NCBI RefSeq assembly: GCF_019972135.1
Contig: NZ_BPFI01000002.1
Span: 62,001-126,000 of the forward strand
DNA: 64,000 nucleotides
Direction of reading: 5' to 3'
From: Sulfurovum sp. TSL1
GTDB lineage: Bacteria; Campylobacterota; Campylobacteria; Campylobacterales; Sulfurovaceae
Positions 14,108 to 61,633 of the stretch are shown piece after piece. The notes beneath the pieces were generated by a model. That model ran no database searches. It was not told the DNA's origin and saw only the letters and a program-made list of their open reading frames with translations. Position numbers and translations under genes: made by a program. How positions within the stretch are numbered: the first letter of the stretch is position 1; every line of letters begins with the position of its first letter.

Positions 14108-14150
14108 AGAGATACCCCCCCCTCTTTTACTAGAGAGGAGATATCGGCTA

Positions 14151-30047: not shown

Positions 30048-30125
30048 GAACTGACGGCTTCCGTATGAAGCAACTACAGCTCCTACCCTTGCACGCGAAA
30101 AGACCATGGCATTTAATAAAATCTT

Positions 30126-40157: not shown

Positions 40158-40178
40158 GTCAACTTCTCATTAAATAAT

Positions 40179-40272
40179 GTCACGGCGAACGCCCTTGCAC
40201 CCCACTTTCGCTTTAGCGACGGGAGGTATCGGCATTTAGTGCCAGAAAATCTAGCGATTCGAGAGCCGTGAC
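40179..40272. repeat. Structured repeat element, copy 1, with outer inverted repeat
   Basis: Core 40200-40251 matches a second copy at 61583-61633 with one gap and about three mismatches. The core contains two small hairpins: TCGC-TTTA-GCGA and GGCA-TTTAG-TGCC. In this copy an 8-bp inverted repeat (GTCACGGC at 40179-40186, GCCGTGAC at 40265-40272) encloses the core. It lies between uvrD and truB on the minus strand. Looks like a small REP/MITE-like element. Confidence 0.75.
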
Positions 40273-40281
40273 GATTTTTGC

Positions 40282-40301
40282 CTACTTTTGTAAAAAAGTA
40301 G
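40282..40301. repeat. Hairpin next to the structured repeat
   Basis: CTACTTTT / AAAAGTAG perfect 8-bp stem with a 4-base loop, 55 bp downstream of the uvrD stop in the minus direction. Could end uvrD transcription, though no separate T-run follows. Confidence 0.45.
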
Positions 40302-40355
40302 ATAGAAAAACTTAAAATATGAGTAAATTTTTGTTGCATACTAGAGTTAAACACT

Positions 40356-60451: not shown

Positions 60452-61576
60452 ATGAACTTCGAAACTTACCCTTTTGAGAAACTCAACCAATTACTTGAAA
60501 ATGTAATCCCCAACCACGATTACCCTGCACTTAGCCTGACGATTGGGGAACCTCAGTTCGAGACACCGGCATTTATACTGGATGCGCTCAAGGAGGCTTC
60601 TGCACTGCTGAACAAATATCCCAAAACGGCGGGTGAAGCGGAGCTGAGAGAAGGGATGTTGGCGTACAATAAAAAGCGTTTTGGTCTTACACTGACAGAT
60701 GCTCAGATCATTCCTACGTTTGGAACCAGAGAAGTGCTCTTTAATTTTCCCCAGTTCTTACTGCATGATGTGGAAAACCCTGTGATGGTCTTCCCCAACC
60801 CTTTTTATCAGATCTATGAGGGGGCAGCCAAGGCATGCAGAGCAGAGGTCATTTACTTGAACCTCAATGAAACCAGTCACTTCCAACCCGTAGTGGATGA
60901 AGAGGCATTGGCAAAAGCGGACCTGGTGATACTCAATTCTCCTAACAACCCTACATCATCGGTAATGTCTATGGAAGATCTAAAGCGTTGGGTAGGATTG
61001 GCATTGAAACATGATTTCATCCTTCTCAATGATGAGTGTTATGTGGATCTCTATCTGGATGAGCCACTTCCTTCACTGCTCAATGCAAGTATAGAAGCAG
61101 GCAATAAAAATTTTAAAAACGTGTTGGTGATCAACTCTATCTCCAAACGTTCCTCTGCACCGGGACTGCGTTCGGGATTTATAGCGGGAGATGCAGAGAT
61201 ACTCAAAGCATATATGGTATACAGGACCTATGTGGGGTGTGCTTCACCCTTACCGCTGCAGCATGCCGCCGCGATGGCATGGGCGGACCAGGAGCATGTC
61301 AATACATTCAGAGCAAAATACAAAAAGAATTTTGAAATGGCCAAAGAAGTTTTAGGGGTAGAGGCGCCTGAAGCGACCTTTTACATTTGGTTGAAAGTGG
61401 AAGATGAGATAGCCTTTACCACGAAACTTTATCAAGAGTACAATCTCAAGGTCCTGCCCGGTTCATTTTTGGGACGTGAGGGTGAAGGTCAAGGGTATAT
61501 AAGGCTCGCCCTTGTGTATGAAGCAGAGCAAACAAAAGAAGCATTGCAACGTATAGCACGTTGCCTGGAAAAGTAG
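60452..61576 (+). CDS. dapC: Succinyldiaminopimelate transaminase (DapC-like)
   Basis: Class I/II aminotransferase, 374 residues: SLTIGEPQFETPAFIL, EVLFNFPQFLL, PNNPTSSVMS, and PLP Lys232 in NSISKRSSAPGLRSGF. The position before murC and the Campylobacterota subfamily pattern suggest the N-succinyl-LL-diaminopimelate step of lysine/peptidoglycan synthesis; other amino-acid substrates are possible. A structured repeat copy lies just after its stop. Confidence 0.85.
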   Translation: MNFETYPFEKLNQLLENVIPNHDYPALSLTIGEPQFETPAFILDALKEASALLNKYPKTAGEAELREGMLAYNKKRFGLTLTDAQIIPTFGTREVLFNFPQFLLHDVENPVMVFPNPFYQIYEGAAKACRAEVIYLNLNETSHFQPVVDEEALAKADLVILNSPNNPTSSVMSMEDLKRWVGLALKHDFILLNDECYVDLYLDEPLPSLLNASIEAGNKNFKNVLVINSISKRSSAPGLRSGFIAGDAEILKAYMVYRTYVGCASPLPLQHAAAMAWADQEHVNTFRAKYKKNFEMAKEVLGVEAPEATFYIWLKVEDEIAFTTKLYQEYNLKVLPGSFLGREGEGQGYIRLALVYEAEQTKEALQRIARCLEK

Positions 61577-61582
61577 AAGACA

Positions 61583-61633
61583 CCCCACTTACGCTTTAGC
61601 GACGAGGGTATCGGCATTTAGTGCCAGAAAATC
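61583..61633. repeat. Structured repeat element, copy 2
   Basis: 51 bases matching 40200-40251 (differences: T/A in ACTT(T/A)CGC, and GGGAGG versus GAGG), with both inner hairpins (CGCTTTAGCG and GGCATTTAGTGCC) unchanged. The outer GTCACGGC inverted repeat of copy 1 is absent. It lies 6 bp after the dapC-like stop and 15 bp before the next gene, so it is transcribed. Confidence 0.75.

Follow-up and report, generated by a model that had tools for sequence, protein, structure and literature searches.

A 48-bp two-hairpin repeat of Sulfurovum and related Campylobacterota, probably a mobile element, nested in the loop of an unrelated repeat

The 123-bp feature described here, from a window of 64,000 nucleotides of Sulfurovum sp. 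TSL1 DNA (the whole stretch analysed), consists of two unrelated repeat families, one inside the terminal loop of the other, rather than the single repeat envisaged in the preliminary description. The inner family, which we call the core, is dispersed within and between genomes, has a conserved two-hairpin structure, is cleanly inserted relative to an empty site, is nested in other repeats, and occurs in frame within protein genes. From comparison of these sequences we infer that the core is probably a 48-bp non-autonomous mobile element which inserts cleanly, and often into existing hairpin loops. It had been suggested that the repeat belongs to an undescribed REP- or MITE-like family; a dispersed, structured, mobile repeat it appears to be, but the defining features of REPs and of MITEs are absent. 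The family is apparently undescribed in the open-licence literature; a 14-base core string occurs in two of the papers searched, and the one listed concerns a human gene.

The coordinates of the window features are collected in Table 1. A search of the whole window with covariance model R1 yielded exactly two significant matches, at 40197-40247 (E 1.4e-20) and 61580-61629 (E 1.6e-21), and the next matches (20294, 37902, 38395) were at chance level. The 32 sequences from relatives used to train R1 include both window copies, whose scores are therefore not independent; independent support comes from BLAST searches with one window copy alone. The recurrence of the core with both hairpins, as originally noticed, is thus borne out, as are the surrounding inverted repeat and the A/T hairpin that follows copy 1, except that the inverted repeat belongs to a separate family, F2, with its own match (model R2, E 4.6e-14). 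Two supposed look-alikes, at 14119-14150 and about 30086-30123, have no R1 match and are attributable to chance.

Table 1. Features of the two core copies and their surroundings (window coordinates)
Feature	Position	Strand	Description and basis
Core copy 1	40198..40246	+	49 bp, CACCCC...GCCAGA; R1 match, ends set by empty G028 ortholog, covariation
Core copy 1, hairpin 1	within 40198..40246	+	ACCCC..GGGGT-type stem, inner CGC-TTTA-GCG
Core copy 1, hairpin 2	within 40198..40246	+	GGCA-TTTAG-TGCC
Outer hairpin element F2	40179..40272	+	GTCACGGC...GCCGTGAC; terminal loop interrupted by core; R2 match 40179-40282
A/T hairpin	40282..40301	+	CTACTTTTGTAAAAAAGTAG; regular follower of F2, similar tail behind F2 copies elsewhere
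Core copy 2	61581..61628	+	48 bp; R1 match; orthologous filled and empty sites
Extra ~25 bp	61556..61580	+	Present only with filled copy-2 site; alignment of filled and empty orthologs

Far from being confined to the two window copies, the core is present in 7 copies in the 2.35-Mb genome from which the window derives (exact pattern, BLAST, and model searches) and in more copies in relatives, Sulfurovum sp. AR being among the close ones. Of the 78 genomes of the genus, 45 contain the core, in about 90 copies altogether, and for a few of these genomes the matches are weak (E 0.003-0.008); across the order, the core was found in 22 of 399 sampled genomes and 5 of 87 genera, with named matches including Sulfurovum, Sulfurimonas, and Poseidonibacter. 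Copies are few (1-7 per genome) and mostly diverged, and the only plasmid match was one Sulfurovum mangrovi record. The consensus is YACCCCACTTACGCTTTAGCGACGGGGGTATCGGCATTTAGTGCCAGA; among 83 non-redundant copies, 48 have the modal length of 48 bp and 73 end in AGA at the 3′ side; the 5′ end reads YACC. The ends, YACCCC and CCAGA, are not complementary to each other, and the core thus lacks terminal inverted repeats. All three helices display compensatory changes, and none of 500 shuffles reached the observed scores; the shuffles do not remove relatedness, and slid controls also fell far below the observed values.

Several individual matches deserve mention. The Chlorobiota contig L092 matches hairpin 2 alone and was treated as chance. 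An IMG/VR viral contig (L251, 1784-1834) carries a core variant directly before a start codon; a single such contig is insufficient for a phage origin of the core. In five genomes (L140, L154, L156, L166, and L184; G000 C1:342348 and four relatives) a degenerate core sits between nearly invariant flanks, with a DEAD-box helicase-like ORF downstream in the two loci inspected, and may be an exapted structured leader.

Orthologous sites reveal how copy 1 came to lie within F2. In the spacer between uvrD and truB (named by reading the ORF sequences), G028 has an intact F2 lacking the core and reading CCCTTG^AAAGCG where the window reads CCCTTG-core-AAATCTAGCG, indicating clean entry of the core into the F2 loop without target duplication; G035 and G075 have F2 alone and G076 has neither, indicating that F2 and the core arrived in separate events. 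F2 is the commoner family (57 of 78 genus genomes, 15 matches in the window genome), mostly lacks the core, and in the copies inspected holds it in the terminal loop. Both sides of the outer stem change in 5 of 8 pairs, a count that 159 of 500 shuffles reach; cells with both-side changes (30, versus a shuffled mean of 9) and the covariation score both lie above the shuffles. Some A/T tails behind F2 copies elsewhere contain an inserted element of another family, F3. The uvrD-truB spacer (window 40158-40355) looks like a hot spot for hairpin elements, since other species (G066, G041, and G003) have unrelated large hairpins there.

The history of copy 2, which lies between the stop codon of an upstream gene (which we take to be aminotransferase-like) and the Shine-Dalgarno region preceding the gene that follows, is less simple. 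The site is filled in G000, G075, G076, G066, and G046, and empty in G035, G028, G038, G077, G019, G011, and G045, a pattern departing from similarity in that G035 is empty and G066 and G046 are filled; moreover, the filled form exceeds the core by 25 bp, the extra sequence supplying the 3′ arm of a CAACGT-ATAGC-ACGTTG hairpin and the TAG codon at which the upstream gene now ends. Insertion by itself therefore does not account for this site, where loss or horizontal exchange has to be assumed as well.

Among 69 clean copies, flanking direct repeats of at least 4 bases are not clearly in excess of those in shuffled pairings, apart from one 7-base case. Independent sites (a set still containing a few F2 or repeat-borne sites) exhibit a weak TTR^AATG-like bias, with A at +2 and G at +4, and the left flank too is weakly biased. 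A folding test that asked how deeply the insertion sites lie within structure could not tell them from controls; a test for hairpins centred on the junction, devised after that failure and therefore exploratory in its significance, found 3 long hairpins scoring at least 9 versus 0.13 expected from control positions. Strong hairpins occur at 6 of 45 independent sites versus 2.3 expected, a modest preference for loops.

The core is in turn a target: the 34-bp F3 and two other elements are found inside its own 4-5 nt loops, at TTT^A, and about five insertions into the core look independent, all of them in loops, with the qualification that the search model may miss insertions into stems. Besides F2, two further outer repeats enclose copies of the core, OE2 and one in G426. 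At L145 (G426 C1:250100-253700), repeat units of ~200 bp with two hairpins, one loop of which contains the core, alternate with small ORFs; this cassette-like arrangement recalls integron attC sites, an identification we rejected because both strands carry ORFs and each unit is a composite of inverted repeats.

Copies also occupy rRNA operons and protein genes. The 23S-5S spacer holds the core in G202 and G093 (assigned with Rfam for one copy each, the others sharing identical flanks), and gene conversion can explain the identical sets within each genome. At no fewer than 10 loci the core is in frame within a gene, on either strand of the coding DNA, and in nucleotide-sugar enzyme genes it adds 16 residues, LALNADTPVAKAKVGC. 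Five of the loci are GDP-fucose synthase-like genes. One RfbB gene holds two copies, and the other hosts are UDP-glucose dehydrogenase and NTP_transf_5-like genes and ORFs resembling integrases. For the fucose synthases and for NTP_transf_5 a single member was tested and similarity carried the name to the rest, whereas the integrases were named by motif reading only. Aligned with the solved GDP-L-fucose synthase 7anh, one core-bearing GDP-fucose synthase has a single gap, of 17 residues, at the insert, and the alignment of RfbB with 1bxk is broken at both inserts. As genic copies were selected by open frame, comparison of frames is partly circular; when flanks were joined, few sites were open when empty yet closed when filled (L041, L051). 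Genic copies are concentrated in nucleotide-sugar and similar genes (L086, L149, L180, L148, L046, L159, L147, L043, L050, and L165), and in integrase-like genes of different genomes (L131, L122, L146, and L144) the core sits at almost one and the same position, next to the motif presumed to hold the catalytic tyrosine.

Palindromic insertions in frame are best known from Rickettsia, whose palindromic elements, like the core, are small and found both between genes and in frame inside them, and are closest to it in behaviour. The Rickettsia elements are about 150 bp, intergenic or in-frame genic, and add a conserved peptide (PMC10969869); the core, compared by description rather than by sequence, is 48 bp, has tandem hairpins, is nested, and resides in free-living Campylobacterota. 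Short dispersed palindromes are also the form of the GTAG- and CGTC-tagged REPs, and Di Nocera 2013 (PMC3733652) lists a Sulfurovum strain with both; CGTC REPs, too, have no linked transposase, and some REP dimers lie inside other palindromes. The core differs in having no unpaired tetranucleotide tag, a two-hairpin structure, and in-frame genic copies, while the GTC of F2 is paired with GAC within the stem; it is by tag and RAYT criteria, rather than by letter-by-letter comparison with the Sulfurovum families of that paper, that we set it apart from REPs. With MITEs (for example those of Coxiella, PMC5896051) the core has in common that it is non-autonomous, dispersed, and able to enter genes, but it lacks their terminal inverted repeats and, judging from the 69 junctions and the clean empty site, target-site duplication. 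A minimal IS200/IS605-type element would likewise have hairpins near both ends and insert without target duplication, but the core has neither a fixed 5′ tetra- or pentanucleotide target nor a link to a Y1 transposase. The small dispersed repeats (SDRs) of cyanobacteria, a different lineage, resemble the core by description in that they too are tiny, structured, and nested within each other.

Three other explanations have to be weighed. Covariation in the helices would also suit a functional structured RNA, a 5′ leader or 3′ end element that is selected and has spread with genes without being mobile, and so would the copies ending just before a Shine-Dalgarno sequence and start codon (L006, L088, L094, L102, L142, and the phage contig L251) and the degenerate core upstream of a helicase-like gene in relatives; nonetheless the contexts are unrelated, including in-frame coding copies on both strands, rRNA spacers, and the interior of other repeats, orthologous sites are patchily empty, and an Rfam search of the window returned no gathering-level match, and we regard a structured RNA as very improbable. 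Scarcely more probable, and still quite unlikely, is present or former mobilisation of the core, as a REP-type element, by a RAYT/IS200-like Y1 transposase: the hairpins at its two ends, the lack of target duplication, and its preference for hairpins would fit single-strand transposition, and Y1 genes are present in 58 of 78 genus genomes, but the GTAG/CGTC tag is missing, no core was found in the loci around 30 Y1 genes, and the two show no positive association, cores occurring in 10 of 13 genomes without and 15 of 27 with a Y1 match (40 good genomes). Six genomes (G012, G028, G035, G075, G076, and G077) have cores, 3-5 of them in each of the first four, and no Y1 gene detected by a search whose recall in draft genomes is imperfect. 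A link between the core and Y1/RAYT genes is not supported.

Somewhat less improbable, although we still think it unlikely, is that no dedicated enzyme is involved and that copies arise by template switching during replication, recombination at hairpins, and gene exchange between relatives. The very small size, the hairpin targets, and the nesting of hairpins from several families accord with such copying, as does the fact that the genomes searched yielded no mobilising gene; on the other side, the repeatable ends (the 3′ AGA) and the target bias at +2 and +4 suggest enzymatic recognition.

For the mobile element we favour, hairpins at both ends, no target duplication, loop targets, and stable ends together suggest an enzyme acting in trans on single-stranded DNA. 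The core would move as a single strand, its hairpin ends and its target loops perhaps being exposed during replication, and a recombinase encoded elsewhere would insert it at weak TTR^AATG-like sites, often in a hairpin loop, leaving no target-site duplication; copy 1 would thus have landed in the loop of the unrelated and commoner F2. Insertions would survive where tolerated: in spacers, in other repeats, in the 23S-5S gap, and in protein loops when the element's single open frame, on whichever strand, matches that of the gene (48 = 3 × 16). More tentatively, and we think this possible rather than probable, an unrecognised Campylobacterota recombinase may mobilise, besides the core, the 34-bp F3 and the other tiny elements found in core loops, all of them entering hairpin loops in single-stranded form at TTN^ANTG-like sites and yielding both the stacked hairpins and the 16-residue enzyme inserts. 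The occurrence in free-living sulfur oxidisers of a 48-bp element with clean empty sites and nested families would allow the movement of repeats that encode no enzyme to be tested in culturable strains, and would provide a simple case for studying the addition of loops to enzymes by selfish DNA.
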